Source of the DNA: a virus | Reading direction: 5' to 3' (one strand) | Virus record (IMG/VR): IMGVR_UViG_3300025009_000417 | Location: 1-20,227 of that record | DNA length: 20,227 bases | Shown here: positions 7,746 to 15,358 of the stretch, one piece after another | Numbering within the stretch: the first letter of the stretch is position 1 | How the letters are laid out: each line of letters starts with the position of its first letter | The notes under the pieces: model-generated | What the model was told of the DNA's origin: nothing | Database searches by the model: none | The model's input: only the letters and a program-made list of their open reading frames with translations | Position numbers and translations under genes: made by a program

Positions 7746-8123
7746 ATGCCAAAAGAAGAGACACAATTTAACAGCGAAACAGCAAAAGAAGCTCAAAAAA
7801 AGATGGCTGTTAAACGCAAGGGGATGACTTACTACACAACCCAAATTAAAGATAGGTTTGTTAAAAGCCGTGATGTTAAACAGATACCGTTAAATGTTGC
7901 AAAAAGATTAAATTTTCTAACAAACGAACTTGCAAAGGACGATTTGGAAGATGCTAAAAGAGAAAAACATCTTGAAGAAATTAAAGCTCTTTCAACTCTC
8001 CACAATAAATTTTTGGACAAAACGTTTGCTACTCAGTTTGAGTCTGATAATCGCAATCACGATACTTCATCCATCACAATCAACACCGTACAACCCGACC
8101 CACCAGAGCCAGAGCATGAATGA
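7746..8123 (+). CDS. Candidate small terminase subunit
   Basis: The product has 125 residues and is charged and mainly helical. The middle contains IPLNVAKRLNFLTNELAKDD and a long coiled-coil-like helix rich in Lys and Glu, and a Pro/Glu-rich tail ends the protein. The gene directly precedes TerL and overlaps it by 8 bases (ATGAATGA), the usual place of the small terminase, which binds the packaging site and delivers DNA to the motor. No sequence signature of a terS family is visible, so the call rests on position, size and helical character. The first 40 residues are rich in Lys and Gln and could be the DNA-binding part. Confidence 0.5.
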   Translation: MPKEETQFNSETAKEAQKKMAVKRKGMTYYTTQIKDRFVKSRDVKQIPLNVAKRLNFLTNELAKDDLEDAKREKHLEEIKALSTLHNKFLDKTFATQFESDNRNHDTSSITINTVQPDPPEPEHE

Positions 8124-9651
8124 TATTCAAGAAATTATATTTCAACCGCAACCCGGCGGGCAGCAGGAATTCCTTAAAAAAATTTATATTGATGAAGTTC
8201 TATTTGGCGGCGCAGCTGGTCCCGGGAAGTCTTGGGCGTTAGTGTTTGATGCTTTAGGAACGCAGTATCAATTTACTCCGCTTGGGAAACCAGCTTACGA
8301 CTGTTCAGACTACAGAGCAGTGCTTTTCAGACGGCAAACAACACAATTTTCAAAACTTATAGACGAAGGGAATAAACTATACACCCGCTTAGGCGCTGAT
8401 TACATTGCGCAAAGACGCGGTGATCCAGGGCCATCTTTTAATTTCAAGTCCGGTTTTGTTTCCGGCGTTGGTTATACCGGGCAAATTGGGGCAAGAATAT
8501 TTATTTGCCACATGTCTGAAGAAAAGAACAAAGAAGATCATCAAGGAATTGAATACCAATATGCCGGTTTTGACGAGCTAACACAGTTTACAGTAACGCA
8601 ATACACATACATCCTTTCGCGATTGAGAACAACGATTGAACATCTTAACGCACGGATGAGGGGGACAACCAACCCAACCGGAAGCGGGCTTGTTTGGGTG
8701 AAAAAAAGATTTATAAAAAACGGCGCGTTAGTTCTTGAACAAGGGAAAGTACATCATTTCAATCCCGATCCCGAAAACAGTATTGAGGATAACCCAACCG
8801 GCGTACTTGCAGAGAGACGCGGCGTTATGTCAAAGTCCAGAATGTTTATTCCCGGACTTTTGCTTGAAAATAAAGTTTTGATGAAAACAGATCCGACTTA
8901 CCAGTACAACATCATGGCCATGGGAAAGAAGTATGAAAAAGCCTTGTTGCACGGTGATTGGGATGCTTTCGGCGGAGAGTTTTTTGATGATTATTCTACC
9001 GACATGAACGTTGAGCCTTTTGATATTCCGCAAGATTGGTTTTTACTTGGTTCAATTGATCCCGGCTGGAGTTCACCTTGCAGTTTTGGACTTCACGCTG
9101 TTTCGCAAGAAGGGAAGAAATACCGCTTGTTTACCTACTACGAAAAAAAATTAGCTCCCTACGAACACGCTAAAAACATAAAAAAGAAAATTAAAGAATT
9201 CCCGTACACACACGGGAGAATGCCGGATATAATCGTTTCTGGCACTGATGCTTTTGCGAAAAAAGAAAAATTTGCTATTCAAGCAAACGAAACAACTTTC
9301 TCAGACGTGTTTGAAAGTTACGGGCTTCACCTAACCCCCGCGAAAACTGACAGGGCGTTAGGTTGGATGACCATGAAAAGTTTAATGCGCCGGGGGAAAT
9401 GGTTTTTGTTCAAAGATTATAACAATCAAGGAGTCGAAGAAATTGTTGCTGCCGAACATGATGAAAACGATCCCGAAGATATTAAGGGGCGCGGGAACAG
9501 TATTGAGGTTTCCGATCACTTCTTGGACGAGGAAAGATATTCTTGTATGAGCGCAATTGTACCAGCCTTGCAAGTTGAAAGCAGTTTGCCGGATTGGTAT
9601 GAAAAGGAAATGGATGATGATACCGAGAACTATTCAAGCATGGGAGTTTAA
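8116..9651 (+). CDS. terL: Terminase large subunit (packaging ATPase and nuclease)
   Basis: From ATG 8116 the product has 511 residues. The frame is open back to 7930, but a start there would overlap the small-subunit gene heavily. Walker A is GGAAGPGKS (31-39), Walker B is YAGFDE (149-154, with D153 and catalytic E154), and the coupling motif RGTTNPTG is at 182-189. The C-terminal RNase H-like nuclease shows SIDPG (D315), SGTDAF (D378) and EVSDHF (D467), the three acidic metal ligands. The protein drives DNA into the prohead and cuts concatemers. This layout fits the Terminase_6-type families. It heads the structural operon together with the preceding small gene. Confidence 0.95.
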   Translation: MNDIQEIIFQPQPGGQQEFLKKIYIDEVLFGGAAGPGKSWALVFDALGTQYQFTPLGKPAYDCSDYRAVLFRRQTTQFSKLIDEGNKLYTRLGADYIAQRRGDPGPSFNFKSGFVSGVGYTGQIGARIFICHMSEEKNKEDHQGIEYQYAGFDELTQFTVTQYTYILSRLRTTIEHLNARMRGTTNPTGSGLVWVKKRFIKNGALVLEQGKVHHFNPDPENSIEDNPTGVLAERRGVMSKSRMFIPGLLLENKVLMKTDPTYQYNIMAMGKKYEKALLHGDWDAFGGEFFDDYSTDMNVEPFDIPQDWFLLGSIDPGWSSPCSFGLHAVSQEGKKYRLFTYYEKKLAPYEHAKNIKKKIKEFPYTHGRMPDIIVSGTDAFAKKEKFAIQANETTFSDVFESYGLHLTPAKTDRALGWMTMKSLMRRGKWFLFKDYNNQGVEEIVAAEHDENDPEDIKGRGNSIEVSDHFLDEERYSCMSAIVPALQVESSLPDWYEKEMDDDTENYSSMGV

Positions 9652-9837
9652 ATGATAGCTGTTGTTACTAAAAAGCAAATGAAGAAATTAAAAAATGATC
9701 CAAGTTTTGAAAGAATTAATAATGAGAACTTTCATAAGATAGCTAAATATTGTTTTGGCGATCAATTTGAAAGATTATTAAAAGCGAAGAAAACAATGGT
9801 TGAAAAAGGTAAAAATGTCAGCGTTCCAGCAAAATAG
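9652..9837 (+). CDS. Small basic protein between terminase and portal, unknown
   Basis: The product has 61 residues and is rich in Lys and Asn, with KKQMKKLKNDPSFERINNEN and a helix around FGDQFERLLKAKKTMVEK. It begins on the base after the TerL stop, with GGGAG in the TerL tail as ribosome-binding site. It overlaps the portal start by 23 bases in another frame. Tight packing between two essential genes suggests it is expressed. There is no recognised family or motif. Confidence 0.55.
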   Translation: MIAVVTKKQMKKLKNDPSFERINNENFHKIAKYCFGDQFERLLKAKKTMVEKGKNVSVPAK

Positions 9838-11809
9838 CGTTTTTGAAGATATTCCAACAATATCCCGAGTGTCAAACGCTGAGGTAAATCTTTCTTCAGA
9901 CTTTGAGCAATTTTTTAAAGACCAAATGAGAAATTTTTATTTAGCTGCGGGATATATTTATTCTGATGCTGATCTTAAAAAATTGATTAAAGAAAAACGT
10001 CCAGCTTTTCAAGTGAATTTGTTTGCTCCGATTTTACTTGAGATTGTTGGCTCGTTTATAGGCAACCTTCCCGGTATTGATATTGTTGGGACAAATGATG
10101 ACGATCAGGCAAAGGCTCACGTGCTCAAAGAGCTTAACGATTCTGTTATGTACGTGAATAATGATTGTGAGGCTGAGTTTAAGAAAGCTTTCCTAACTGC
10201 GATTATTGCCCGTCGTTCTTGGATTAAGCAAGAGTGGAGGTTTAACAATCGCGGAGTTGGCAACATAATCATTGAGTTTTATAATTCCTTTATCAAACAT
10301 GACACATCTTCAACACGGTGGAGCGACACACAGTTTCTTTCCGACACTGCATGGCTTACTCCTGAGCAAATAATCAGAAACTATGCCCGTGGTAAAAGTG
10401 ATTTGGAAGCAGAGATAAAAGAAAAATCGCTTACCATTTTCGGAGAAAGCGAAAAGAAGAACAAAGAAATTGCACGTTGGTATGAACTTCTAACCGGTTC
10501 CGCAATGAGCTATAAGGGCGACGAGAAAGGTTTTGACTCACAAGATTTTAAAAACGAATGGGATGCGCACGGTGTTTGGCACAGACGCGAAAGTAGAAGA
10601 TTGAAAGTTGTTGATTTTTATGAGAAACGTTATGAGAAAACAAAAACTTTAATTGATCCGCAAACTTTTAAACCTTACGATGTGACCGATTTTAGTGATG
10701 AAGATTTAACTGCGATAGTGCAATCTTACCCAATACAGCCGCGTATAAAAGAAGATTACACAGAAAAAGTTTATCAAATATCTGTTGTGCCGGGGATAAA
10801 TGTAAAACTGTTTGAAGGGTTACAAGAAATACAGAACGGAAATTTTAAGTTTACAAAAATAGATTGTTTCGACTTCCACCCGGATCAGCTTGAAACAAAA
10901 TCAATTGTTGATAACATAAAAGACGGCGTGAGAAGTAGAACGTTGCTGAAGAATACTAATCTAACCTACATCATGCGAATGGCTCACGGCGGGTATTTGG
11001 CTGAAGAAGGGCTTGCAAAAGGACACACCGGATTAAAAGAACTTGATTCAAATAAAATTGGAGGCGTTACATACGTCCCAAATGGTTCTATTTCGGGCAA
11101 TCGGATTAAAGAAAAAACCGTCCCGAATCCAAACATCGCTATAGAAAGATTTAACGAGCAAGATTGGGAAGAAATTCAAACTGTTTCCGGTTCAACAGCT
11201 AACAGCAGGGGCAAGCAAGAAAGTTCTTCTGAGAGTGGAAAGTTATTTCAGAAACGTGTTGAGCGCGGGGCTGTACTGCAGGAATGGGTAAACAGTAATT
11301 TTCAAAGCGCGTTGAAGATAATTACTCAAAACAATATTTACTTGATTCAAAACAACATGACTGAAGATAGAGTTGTGCGCTTACTTCGTGACGAAAATAA
11401 ACCGGAATTTATGACAATAAATAAACGTGTACTTGGACAAGTTTTGAACGATGTGACTGTAGGTGATTTTGATGTCGAAATTTCTCATACAGCTTTTGGA
11501 CGTGAAGCAAAAGAACTTGACCGGGAAAAAGAAGGAGAGGTAATTTCAGTATTGATGCAGCTTAACCCGGCTTATGTTCCGGCGGCAACCATTGTGAAAA
11601 ATAGCGGAATAAAGAGTAAGGACGAGTATTTGGCACAAATTGAAATGGTTGACCAGCAAACAGAACAAGAAAAAACTATTGCTGAAGAAGATTTAAACCT
11701 TAGACGAGAAAGTACAATTTTACAAAACCAACAAAGCAGACTGAAAGCGCAAGAGCTTCAGAACGATGTCGGTTTTGATATGTTACTTAAAGACGCAATT
11801 GGATTTTAA
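9815..11809 (+). CDS. Portal protein, P22-type
   Basis: The product has 664 residues from ATG 9815, which follows AAAAAGG. A TTG at 9800 in frame is less likely. The N-terminal part includes PAFQVNLFAPILLEIVGSFI and GIDIVGTNDDD, the segment layout of P22-like portals, followed by AFLTAIIARRSWIKQEWRF. The C-terminal third has a long Gln/Glu-rich helix (EQEKTIAEEDLNLRRESTIL region), comparable to the barrel helices of large portals. Twelve copies would form the ring at one capsid vertex through which DNA enters and to which the adaptor and tail bind. The length suits the P22 family. It lies directly after TerL, as expected. Confidence 0.85.
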   Translation: MSAFQQNSVFEDIPTISRVSNAEVNLSSDFEQFFKDQMRNFYLAAGYIYSDADLKKLIKEKRPAFQVNLFAPILLEIVGSFIGNLPGIDIVGTNDDDQAKAHVLKELNDSVMYVNNDCEAEFKKAFLTAIIARRSWIKQEWRFNNRGVGNIIIEFYNSFIKHDTSSTRWSDTQFLSDTAWLTPEQIIRNYARGKSDLEAEIKEKSLTIFGESEKKNKEIARWYELLTGSAMSYKGDEKGFDSQDFKNEWDAHGVWHRRESRRLKVVDFYEKRYEKTKTLIDPQTFKPYDVTDFSDEDLTAIVQSYPIQPRIKEDYTEKVYQISVVPGINVKLFEGLQEIQNGNFKFTKIDCFDFHPDQLETKSIVDNIKDGVRSRTLLKNTNLTYIMRMAHGGYLAEEGLAKGHTGLKELDSNKIGGVTYVPNGSISGNRIKEKTVPNPNIAIERFNEQDWEEIQTVSGSTANSRGKQESSSESGKLFQKRVERGAVLQEWVNSNFQSALKIITQNNIYLIQNNMTEDRVVRLLRDENKPEFMTINKRVLGQVLNDVTVGDFDVEISHTAFGREAKELDREKEGEVISVLMQLNPAYVPAATIVKNSGIKSKDEYLAQIEMVDQQTEQEKTIAEEDLNLRRESTILQNQQSRLKAQELQNDVGFDMLLKDAIGF

Positions 11810-11842: not shown

Positions 11843-12325
11843 ATGAAAAAAATAGCTGTACTTATAACACTTCTGTTGGTTTTATCTGTATCTGTACAAG
11901 GACAGGTAACACTAAACGTAAGTTCTTTCCGTGCCGATGCGAACGGGGTAGAATTCCCATTTCAAGGCGCCATTGATACTGTAGGCGGGACTTATGATTC
12001 GCTTGCCTCGGGTTTGTTTGACATAAGAGATTATGACGGCTGTGATAGCTTGGACTGGTCGTGTTTAGTAGTGTCTGATACCGGCAACGTGAAATTTACT
12101 TTACGTTTACTTGGGTCTGATTACAGCACTTCTATTGCAAGCGCGGTAGTATTAAAAACAATACTTTCAGCAAGCACAACCGAAACAGAACAGGGCGGAT
12201 CGTTTTCACTTTCCGGGATAAGAAAAAAATATATGTGGCTGGATATTGAGCAAACAACCGGGACGGGCAAAAATGATGACGCGACTTTTAAGGTTAAGCT
12301 GAAGCTGCCGAAGCGGGATTTTTAA
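11843..12325 (+). CDS. Small secreted protein encoded between portal and scaffold, unknown
   Basis: The product has 160 residues. It starts MKKIAVLITLLLVLSVSVQG followed by Q, a textbook Sec signal peptide with likely cleavage after G20. The mature part is beta-rich and acidic (DSLASGLFDIRDYDGCDSLD, NVKFTLRLLGSDYSTSIASA) with a basic end (KVKLKLPKRDF). A strong AGGGGGG precedes the ATG. A signal peptide is unexpected for a gene inside the head-assembly cluster. It may act outside the cytoplasm, for example in superinfection exclusion, or the leader may serve membrane-associated assembly. There are two cysteines near residues 63-71. No family is recognised. Confidence 0.7.
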   Translation: MKKIAVLITLLLVLSVSVQGQVTLNVSSFRADANGVEFPFQGAIDTVGGTYDSLASGLFDIRDYDGCDSLDWSCLVVSDTGNVKFTLRLLGSDYSTSIASAVVLKTILSASTTETEQGGSFSLSGIRKKYMWLDIEQTTGTGKNDDATFKVKLKLPKRDF

Positions 12326-12627: not shown

Positions 12628-13863
12628 ATGTTCAAAAGATTAAAAGCAATAGCCCCTTTCTTCTACTCACCGGAAGGAGCTAACGAATCGGGCAAAACCG
12701 ATGAAAAAATAATTGACGGCGCGGATAAAACCGAAACCGTTGAAACAGACGTTGAGACAATTGAATCTCACGATTCCGCAACAGACAAAAATACCGAGCC
12801 GGACCCGGAATCACTTGAAGGTATGGAGATTGAATTAGAAAAAGCGAAAAGCAAATTATTCGATCCGGGCAAAACCGGGGAGAACAAAACTGATGATAGC
12901 AGCAAAGAAAAGCCCGAAGCTTCGGGACAAGCGGGTAAAACCGAAAAGGACAATTTGGGTAAAGCTAAATTTGTCAAAGTTGATGACGAGTTTATCAACA
13001 AAGCTTCTGAAGAAGATAAAGAATTTTTGCAATCTATAAAGGGCGAGTCTTTAAGCGAAAAAGCAATTAAGATTCATGTAAATGCTCAAAAGTATATTAA
13101 ACAATTAAAAGAGGGAACGGCAACTCCCGAAACTCTTAAAGCGGCTTCAACACAAGTTAAGCCAATGTCGAATGATCAAATTACCGAAGCTAAAAACAAT
13201 ATGATTTACAATCAGATTGCAGCAAGGTTTTCTGATTTTCCAAAAGAAGGTTTAACCGATCCAGAAGCGCGTGACGATTACGAAAGAGTTTTGTTTAATG
13301 AATCGCCGAGCAAACACAGAGAATTTACTAAACTGTTTGAGGACAGCGCAACACGTGTCGACCAATGGGAAAAAGGCTATCGTGATTTATCTACAACTTG
13401 GGAAGATAGAGCTTCCGCGCAGATTACGGCGGGCGTTGATACTTTTACCGAGGAGTTGAAGAAACACGGACTTTCTCCAAAAGATTTGGGGATTGAGTTT
13501 ACTGATCAGTGGATTTTGCAAAACTTAATTTATAAGAATGATGGGAAGCCTGACGAAAACGTTGTGCGTTTTCAACACAATATCCCAATAGTTCTTCCAA
13601 ATGCAGTCGGCACAAAACTTATTCAAAACTTTCTTCCGCAAATTATTGAAGCAACAAAAACGCAAGCGCGGAAAGAAGCTCTTGAGGGGAAGGAAAAGCT
13701 GACTCCAAATCCAAGTATTAGTAATTCAAATCTTAGCGCGAAAGATAAAATCAGCAAAGATACTCTCCTTGTTGATGATAACAGTTCGCTTGCAGAAATA
13801 GAAGCTGCTATTGAACAAGAAAAAGTAAAATTATTCGGTCCGGACGGTAAAGAACTTAAATAA
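12628..13863 (+). CDS. Candidate head scaffolding protein
   Basis: The product has 411 residues. After a short hydrophobic start (MFKRLKAIAPFFYSPEG), residues about 17-120 are very rich in Glu, Asp, Lys and Thr and look disordered. A helical, charged middle (DEFINKASEEDKEFLQSIKG) and a Lys/Glu-rich C-terminal helix (AEIEAAIEQEKVKLFGPDGK) follow. A position directly before the major capsid gene, high charge and low complexity are typical of scaffolding proteins, which guide procapsid assembly and then leave. No protease motif is seen. The assignment rests on composition and context. The last helix, with its basic residues, could be the coat-binding end. Confidence 0.65.
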   Translation: MFKRLKAIAPFFYSPEGANESGKTDEKIIDGADKTETVETDVETIESHDSATDKNTEPDPESLEGMEIELEKAKSKLFDPGKTGENKTDDSSKEKPEASGQAGKTEKDNLGKAKFVKVDDEFINKASEEDKEFLQSIKGESLSEKAIKIHVNAQKYIKQLKEGTATPETLKAASTQVKPMSNDQITEAKNNMIYNQIAARFSDFPKEGLTDPEARDDYERVLFNESPSKHREFTKLFEDSATRVDQWEKGYRDLSTTWEDRASAQITAGVDTFTEELKKHGLSPKDLGIEFTDQWILQNLIYKNDGKPDENVVRFQHNIPIVLPNAVGTKLIQNFLPQIIEATKTQARKEALEGKEKLTPNPSISNSNLSAKDKISKDTLLVDDNSSLAEIEAAIEQEKVKLFGPDGKELK

Positions 13864-13872
13864 AATATTCTT

Positions 13873-13877
13873 AGGAG
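13873..13877 (+). promoter_or_regulatory. Ribosome-binding site that decides the capsid start
   Basis: AGGAG lies 11 bases before ATG 13889. The next in-frame ATG, at 13982, has no Shine-Dalgarno-like sequence upstream. This supports the signal-peptide-bearing start for the capsid gene. Confidence 0.65.
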
Positions 13878-13888
13878 ATCGAATAAAA

Positions 13889-15358
13889 ATGAAGAACGTA
13901 AATAAATCACTATTGTTTGAACTGCTTACAATTGTGTTCGCTTGCTTCGCAATTTATTTTGTGAGTGACGCGTTTGCACAAATGACTGTTGGATCCGGGG
14001 GGATTCTAATAGCTACTGTTGTAGGCGGTCTTTACACACCCGACATGGTTCATTACAGAAAGTTAATATCTAAAAAAGTTAATAAAGAAATTTGGTATAA
14101 GGGGAAAATGTCCAAACTTCTTTCTGTTATTGATTATGACAAATTTGAAAAAACGGGCAGATATGCAGCCTTAAAAGATTCTCCAATGCCTAACGGCGGA
14201 ATTATCAATTTGATACGCGATTTCAAATCTAAGAAAGGCGTTGAAATGGATATTCCAATGATTAGACCTTTGACCGGACACGGTAAAATTGGTTCGGCAA
14301 GATTGAAAGGAACTGGCGAAGCAAGAAAAATTTTCAATCAAAAGGTTGCAATTAATTTAAGACGCCACGCTGTCACTATCCAAGATAATGACATGTCTGT
14401 ACAAAGCATTTTGGAAGATACTGAGCTTGCAACGATGTTGTTTGAAGATGGCGCGAACGATTTAAAAGATTGGTTCAGCCGTTTAATGCCTTTTGAATAT
14501 ATGTTCGGTTTGTTTAACGGTTATTCAGAAAACATTTACGATTCTGTAAATGGTTTGGGTACAAATTACGCAAGAAAATCACACCCGAACTTTTATGTAC
14601 AGGGATCAGGTTTGGTTGCGACACCAGCGACAATGTCAACACCTTACACTTTTAACGCTGCTTATGAAACACAGTGTAAAACTGCTCTTGCGACATTAGC
14701 AGCAGAAACTTCCACGACAAAGTTCAAATATCAATCATTGCGTAACATGAAATATTTGGCTGTTCAGAAAAAAATTGCTCATGTTCTTTTCAACGGAATG
14801 GAAGTTCATTTTGTTTTCATAACAGAATCCCAAGCATGGCAGTTAAAGTCTGATCCTGAATGGATTAGTTTGTGGAAAGATGCAGCTGCCCGCGCGAAAG
14901 ATAACCCGGCAATTAGCGGAATAATCGAAGGGTACATTGTTGATGGTTTGTACATCTGCGTTGACCCAACGATTCCTTCAGCTTATATAGACGGCGATGC
15001 TCAGTTTGTTGCCGCAGTTTCAACAACCGGCGCGACAACAGGCGTACAATACGGCGGAGTTGACAGCGATAACGTGCCGAGTTATATGGAAGATCCAAGA
15101 GACACCGGCCCAAGAAAACCGGCTATTCTTTTGGGTAAAGGCGCGATCCATGTTGGTGAAGGACGTGGTTTTGTTAAAACTGAAGAAGTTGACGATCACG
15201 ATCAATGGATTGAACACGGCGGAAAAATGATTTACGGCGTCGCTAGAGCCGATATTATTGACGCTGATAACTATTTGGGTAACGGTGCCGGATTATTCTA
15301 CGCTAACCAAAGTTCGTTATTGTACTGGACATATTCACCGGATTCAATAACAGTATAA
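13889..15358 (+). CDS. Major capsid protein, N4-gp56/DUF4043 type, with a signal-peptide-like N-terminus
   Basis: The product has 489 residues. From about residue 50 it matches the pattern of N4-gp56-family capsid proteins: HYRKLISKKVNKEIWYKGKM, FKSKKGVEMDIPMIRPLTG, GSARLKGTGEARKI, then NLRRHAVTIQDNDMSVQS and a DWFSRLMPFEYM segment. It forms the icosahedral shell of the head. The first 31 residues are unusual: NKSLLFELLTIVFACFAIYF then VSDAFAQ, with basic residues, a hydrophobic core and an AFA-Q cleavage-like site. An in-frame ATG at 13982 would give a leaderless protein but lacks a ribosome-binding site. The gene follows the scaffold candidate by 25 bases. The C-terminal part is glycine-rich and carries HVGEGRGFVKTEEVDDHDQW. 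Confidence 0.85.
   Translation: MKNVNKSLLFELLTIVFACFAIYFVSDAFAQMTVGSGGILIATVVGGLYTPDMVHYRKLISKKVNKEIWYKGKMSKLLSVIDYDKFEKTGRYAALKDSPMPNGGIINLIRDFKSKKGVEMDIPMIRPLTGHGKIGSARLKGTGEARKIFNQKVAINLRRHAVTIQDNDMSVQSILEDTELATMLFEDGANDLKDWFSRLMPFEYMFGLFNGYSENIYDSVNGLGTNYARKSHPNFYVQGSGLVATPATMSTPYTFNAAYETQCKTALATLAAETSTTKFKYQSLRNMKYLAVQKKIAHVLFNGMEVHFVFITESQAWQLKSDPEWISLWKDAAARAKDNPAISGIIEGYIVDGLYICVDPTIPSAYIDGDAQFVAAVSTTGATTGVQYGGVDSDNVPSYMEDPRDTGPRKPAILLGKGAIHVGEGRGFVKTEEVDDHDQWIEHGGKMIYGVARADIIDADNYLGNGAGLFYANQSSLLYWTYSPDSITV

Follow-up and report, generated by a model that had tools for sequence, protein, structure and literature searches.

Why should the major capsid protein of a tailed phage, one of a class of proteins regarded as soluble and cytoplasmic, begin with a leader that resembles a signal sequence? 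The question is raised by IMG/VR phage record IMGVR_UViG_3300025009_000417, whose 20,227 analyzed bases we call the window. Its capsid open reading frame (ORF, 13889-15358) starts with MKNVNKSLLFELLTIVFACFAIYFVSDAFA|QMTVGSGG, and comparison with relatives supports a translated leader that was acquired once, before the divergence of six lineages. We give roughly even odds to this leader being a signal-anchor that would take newly made capsid protein to the cytoplasmic membrane, where proheads would assemble. The capsid start contains the following features:

13873..13877, + strand: Shine-Dalgarno sequence AGGAG of the capsid gene, within the GGAGAT also present in leaderless relatives
13889..15358, + strand: major capsid protein gene (phrog_334 / PF13252), 489 amino acids, with the N-terminal leader
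13889..13981, + strand: leader, residues 1-31, with positive n-region, hydrophobic core and AFA|Q
13910..13963, + strand: hydrophobic core, residues 8-25, LLFELLTIVFACFAIYFV; the modelled helix spans residues 6-32
13970..13981, + strand: possible signal peptidase I (SPI) site AFA|Q, residues 28-31, not kept in relatives
14003..14047, + strand: N-arm motif ILIATVVGGLYTPDM, alignable in 6/6 leader-bearing lineages and followed by ordinary capsid sequence

The first-pass annotation had placed the hydrophobic leader, ending AFA-Q, behind the only start with a ribosome-binding site, and this holds: ATG 13889 lies 25 nucleotides after the scaffold stop and 11 after AGGAG (13873-13877), whereas ATG 13982 (Met32) lacks the Shine-Dalgarno sequence that most window genes have. 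The same layout of scaffold stop, GGAGAT and ATG opens an ordinary capsid gene in the leaderless relatives L151 and L159, so ATG 13889 is the orthologous capsid start and the leader sits between a native start signal and a native N-arm. When the six frames over the leader were compared, only the capsid frame combined freedom from stops with strong hydrophobicity in every one of the six leader-bearing lineages; hydropathy of at least 2.39, the lowest value among these leaders, arises by chance in 0.8% of random open 39-codon frames of similar composition and in 1.4% of shuffled leader bases. The sequence evidence thus supports a real leader, translated as part of the capsid protein.

Could the capsid instead begin at Met32 or later, with the leader never made or, if two starts are used, made only as a minor form? 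An ATG does occur near codon 32-33 in three of the six lineages (window, L246 and L164), but never with a Shine-Dalgarno sequence, and at this place L162 and L167 have no start at all and L247 only TTG. In most of the six, by comparison, the leader start is either preceded by a Shine-Dalgarno sequence of its own or overlapped by the scaffold stop (by four bases in the L164 group), and with a frame that alone is both open and hydrophobic throughout, we consider a start-site error very improbable. Nor is Met32 the first residue of the conserved capsid region, the alignable N-arm motif beginning at about residue 39 and the fold at about residue 55.

The protein bearing the leader was identified from its profile matches and predicted fold. 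It scores 39.2 bits against PF13252 (curated cut-off 23) and E 2.7e-21 against phrog_334, and when its AlphaFold model is compared with the PDB by Foldseek, the top matches are the capsids of Pan3, GP4, Pam1 and KHP30 (probability 0.99-1.00, E 7e-6 to 1e-3), although the model is weak (predicted local distance difference test, pLDDT, 54; template modelling score, TM, 0.3). On these grounds the window capsid is an HK97-type phrog_334 / Phage_capsid_3 protein. It shares family, fold and portal-scaffold-capsid gene order with RHph_Y1_10, JC1, LASTA and Pam5 and with the structurally characterized Pan3, GP4 and Pam1, but none of these seven has a hydrophobic leader.

Closer relatives show that the leader is not peculiar to the window. 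L151 and L159 came from a search with a DNA pattern that encodes FGGAAGPGKSW, a terminase motif; an alignment of their terminases with that of the window led to L160 (a Calditrichota metagenome-assembled genome, MAG), L161 (an Ignavibacteriales MAG) and L162-L171, and a capsid alignment led to L246 and L247. Besides the window, whose capsid-start region is identical in two further contigs of the same virus, leaders are carried by L246 (MKKQILINAFLFILTVIATVFSGG), L247 (MRYSVIFKILALCLFAVIYATYNV), L162 (MRKSYFMLLMVVSAAIAFVLDA), the L164 group including L161 (MKTKLIKDFYIRIFLAGLFTCIVAILIKVDA) and L167 (MKRRILFAATFGLVALVCLVLDA). The capsid copy in the Ignavibacteriales MAG (L161:7132-8553) is interrupted next to a brief stretch of N and is likely misassembled. 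The six nearest outgroups (L151, L241, L171, L168, L159/L160 and L242) are leaderless. Maximum 17-residue hydropathy is 2.39-2.85 in the six leader lineages versus 0.33-0.82 in the six outgroups, and the N-terminus is net positive in all six of the former. The suggestion that the leader is a property of the group is thereby confirmed, the N-termini of related phages being hydrophobic at the same place.

Beyond these lineages the feature is rare. Nearly all of about 70 homologues more distant than the outgroups are leaderless too: in a set of 80 capsid-like ORFs from the wider family, L215 alone exceeds a hydropathy of 1.52 outside the clade. Class-wide searches of Ignavibacteria (391 genomes) and Calditrichota (82) turned up further capsids, none with a leader. 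A capsid search of the phages collection and scans with single proteins over viral contigs and genome contigs returned nothing beyond the window's own virus, a broad terminase alignment yielded mainly Firmicutes-type phages in which a close portal or capsid is absent, and the leader peptides used as queries against the phages collection gave no match. Some distant relatives have unusual capsid genes: those of L112 (6776-8764) and L119 (12342-14348) look split, with ∼0.9 kb between the parts, and in L011 (13206-15042) the capsid ORF is shortened and an endonuclease-like gene lies before it; these are perhaps introns or homing elements.

We built the capsid tree from capsid domains with the leaders removed. 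One change explains the leader on this tree (support 79/99; 82% of bootstrap trees), a count that none of 500 shuffles matched. This supports a single gain ancestral to the clade and argues against a recent one-off fusion, one of the origins put forward in the first-pass annotation. DNA duplication was tried as a source of the L162 leader and rejected, the match being limited to the start region.

An older fusion, a single capture of a host signal peptide that was then retained without function, would fit the high variability of the leaders. Across the clade, leaders share 6-45% identity and capsid domains 41-77%, and among L162, L164 and L167, 70-77% of capsid residues are common against 23-33% of leader residues. 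Yet hydrophobicity persists through this deep divergence in all six lineages, whereas drift of the window leader simulated to 25% identity kept its hydropathy in 3% of trials, which makes functionless retention a remote prospect. No clade member that had lost the leader without other change was seen. Because the leaders diverge strongly yet stay hydrophobic and positive while the capsid domains are conserved, what is selected, as far as the alignments indicate, is hydrophobicity and a positive N-terminus, not particular residues. Free letters with fixed physics are the pattern that would be expected of signal sequences. Within the L164 group, leaders differ at one position, too few for substitution counts.

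A lone extension of the kind that functionless capture would leave does occur in the unrelated Firmicutes-type capsid L215 (14641-15813), which has a 43-residue N-terminal extension, hydrophobic and then basic, that follows the strong Shine-Dalgarno sequence AAGGAGG and is missing from its relatives. The positive charges after its helix would keep the capsid domain inside, so L215 is possibly an independent case with the opposite charge order, though a single one.

Whether the leader is cut is best judged against its neighborhood. The window reads terminase, P22-like portal, a signal-peptide protein (11843), a 78-amino-acid gene, scaffold, capsid, a small gene and tail genes, and so has the terminase, portal, scaffold and capsid order expected for phrog_334 / Phage_capsid_3 phages:

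8116..9651, + strand: terminase large subunit; the probe for relatives
9815..11809, + strand: P22-like portal (PF16510, phrog_156)
11843..12325, + strand: small beta-rich protein whose signal peptide is cleavable (VQG|Q); gene syntenic in 6/6 lineages, between portal and scaffold
12628..13863, + strand: scaffold gene, assigned by position and composition, with homologues in L161-L170
15454..15750, + strand: small post-capsid gene, candidate cement protein, without a leader in the window; the L162 homologue has one

For the portal gene the more likely start is ATG 9815, which has a Shine-Dalgarno sequence, and not the upstream TTG 9800.

The leader that the first-pass annotation had also seen on the 11843 protein is a real one. 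In all six lineages the gene between portal and scaffold encodes a classical signal peptide, and the +1 residue is always Q (VQG|Q, SYA|Q, VSA|Q, MFA|Q, TFS|Q and ISA|Q); no fold match was obtained for the 11843 protein, its structure model being too poor. A +1 Q in SPI substrates is known as the Bacteroidetes Q-rule, with a Q-value of 77% in Ignavibacterium album (PMC5837995), and is matched in the window's virus by AFA|Q of the capsid, VQG|Q of 11843 and TEA|Q of the tail spike.

These matches argue for a cleavable Sec/SPI signal peptide, whereby host SPI would cut after AFA and expose Q31, as part of maturation or of release at the membrane. The window leader has the positive n-region and hydrophobic core of such a peptide, AFA|Q fits the -3/-1 rule as well as the Q-rule, with the I. 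album Q-value in support (PMC5837995), and proteins of these phages that are truly exported show the same kind of site. Among capsid leaders, however, +1 Q occurs in the window only, the other five lineages not following the Q-rule (1/6 versus 6/6 in the portal-adjacent gene; Fisher p = 0.015); with a larger set of 12 signal peptides the contrast reaches p = 0.0007, a partly circular figure, as the Q site was itself a criterion for picking some of them. SPI, moreover, works on the periplasmic side, so cutting implies export of the capsid domain. We therefore regard this alternative as unlikely for the clade, although AFA|Q may be cut in the window's own virus.

Compared with signal peptides from these same phages, capsid leaders also have a higher hydropathy (p = 0.01), and their polar-free stretches are longer (p = 0.02). 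Because they are more hydrophobic, longer and mostly without a Q site, the conserved feature, judged by composition, is an anchor-like helix and not a cleavage site. Of the first-pass interpretation, then, a genuine, group-wide leader stands and membrane anchoring fits best, while recent fusion is not supported and maturation at AFA|Q is weakened by the lack of +1 Q in five capsid leaders and its retention in an exported neighbor.

The signal-anchor reading, to which we give a probability of about one-half, would run as follows. The capsid N-terminus would offer a positive start and then a 17-19-residue hydrophobic helix; host signal recognition particle (SRP), Sec or YidC would most likely recognize it as it leaves the ribosome; new subunits would be carried co-translationally to the cytoplasmic membrane; proheads would assemble there; and the leader would afterwards detach, be trimmed or stay as an N-terminal arm. 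The window leader has the hydrophobic stretch of at least 17 residues and the positive flank of a signal-anchor, with a helix modelled over residues 6-32. In favor of this reading we count the orthologous start, the six-versus-six hydropathy contrast, the single gain, the constraint, the positive N-terminus and the mostly absent Q site, together with strongly hydrophobic N-termini on the scaffold of the L164 group (L164:14441-15805) and the post-capsid protein of L162 (L162:11202-11609).

A precedent also counts for it: T4 initiates its proheads at the inner membrane by means of portal gp20, gp40 and YidC (PMC9958956). Heads of a tailed phage thus begin on the membrane there, as proposed here, but in T4 the portal attaches, aided by a chaperone, whereas here the shell protein itself would bear the membrane signal. 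The major coat protein of filamentous phages, pVIII, sits in the inner membrane as a transmembrane helix (PMC3185693), but has another fold and another virion, its coat being extruded through the envelope with no DNA-packaging prohead.

Two points weigh against the signal-anchor. SRP targeting is argued from hydropathy alone, and the topology conflicts with the location of DNA packaging. By the positive-inside rule, a positive N-terminus predicts translocation of what follows; this would put the capsid domain outside, which packaging forbids, and speaks against simple insertion. Translocation must therefore be stopped, or the leader must associate with the membrane differently: fast folding and assembly could block translocation, the helix could lie at the membrane surface, or it could be used inside the prohead.

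The last of these leads to an alternative in which the leader never enters the membrane but packs inside the prohead on the scaffold or on neighboring subunits. The HK97 delta domain is an N-terminal extension of an HK97-fold capsid that is present in assembly; it is long, charged and scaffold-like, and is cut by the phage protease. The window leader resembles it in being an N-terminal extension, thus by place and not by sequence, but consists of ∼30 hydrophobic residues. The position of the leader, N-terminal and adjoining the scaffold gene, suits an assembly arm, as does the hydrophobic scaffold N-terminus of the one clade member noted above; in the other five lineages the scaffold has no hydrophobic N-terminus. 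The searched head-module genes of the window, several of them unassigned, matched no protease family in profile searches, and a conserved positive N-terminus with hydropathy of at least 2.4 is typical of membrane targeting and would invite SRP. An assembly arm is accordingly conceivable, at well below the odds of a signal-anchor.

Export signals on virion tail spikes were unexpected. The tail spike of the window's virus (L256:1499-5005, contig 3300025000_000271; phrog_2234, beta helix) opens with MKKFILLFFLIAALITEA|Q, and its L247 counterpart with MKKHAYYLCIIVTLFCLQFETNA|Q, both Q-rule signal peptides. In a speculative extension of the signal-anchor reading, several virion proteins would pass through the export machinery of the host: the capsid would be tethered to the cytoplasmic membrane by its leader, while tail spike and portal-adjacent protein would be exported via their Q-rule signal peptides, to be added to the particle either in the periplasm or upon lysis; if true, a tailed phage would complete its virion across two compartments. 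In L168 (17033-17512) and L242 (592-1161, minus strand), whose capsids are leaderless, a signal-peptide gene directly follows the capsid gene and may be the counterpart of the portal-adjacent gene at a different place. No leader was found on the inspected capsid and tail-spike genes of crAss001, B40-8, FCL-2 and part of phi14:2, and in the first three, phages of other Bacteroidota, such N-termini occur on few ORFs.

The hosts of the clade are probably Ignavibacteria, because an L164-type phage lies in an Ignavibacteriales MAG, which also holds a second, leaderless family member, and because of the fit to the Q-rule; binning of phage contigs is error-prone. The leader gives a marker for phages of these barely described hosts, and gene callers and curators may trim such leaders as start errors. 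Our literature search, limited to open-licence papers, found no description of a tailed-phage capsid protein with a signal-type leader, and the clade may build its heads on the host membrane in a previously undescribed way. If a conserved capsid leader did target the membrane, head assembly would be shown to take another route, which bears directly on the old question of whether proheads form on membranes, and how.
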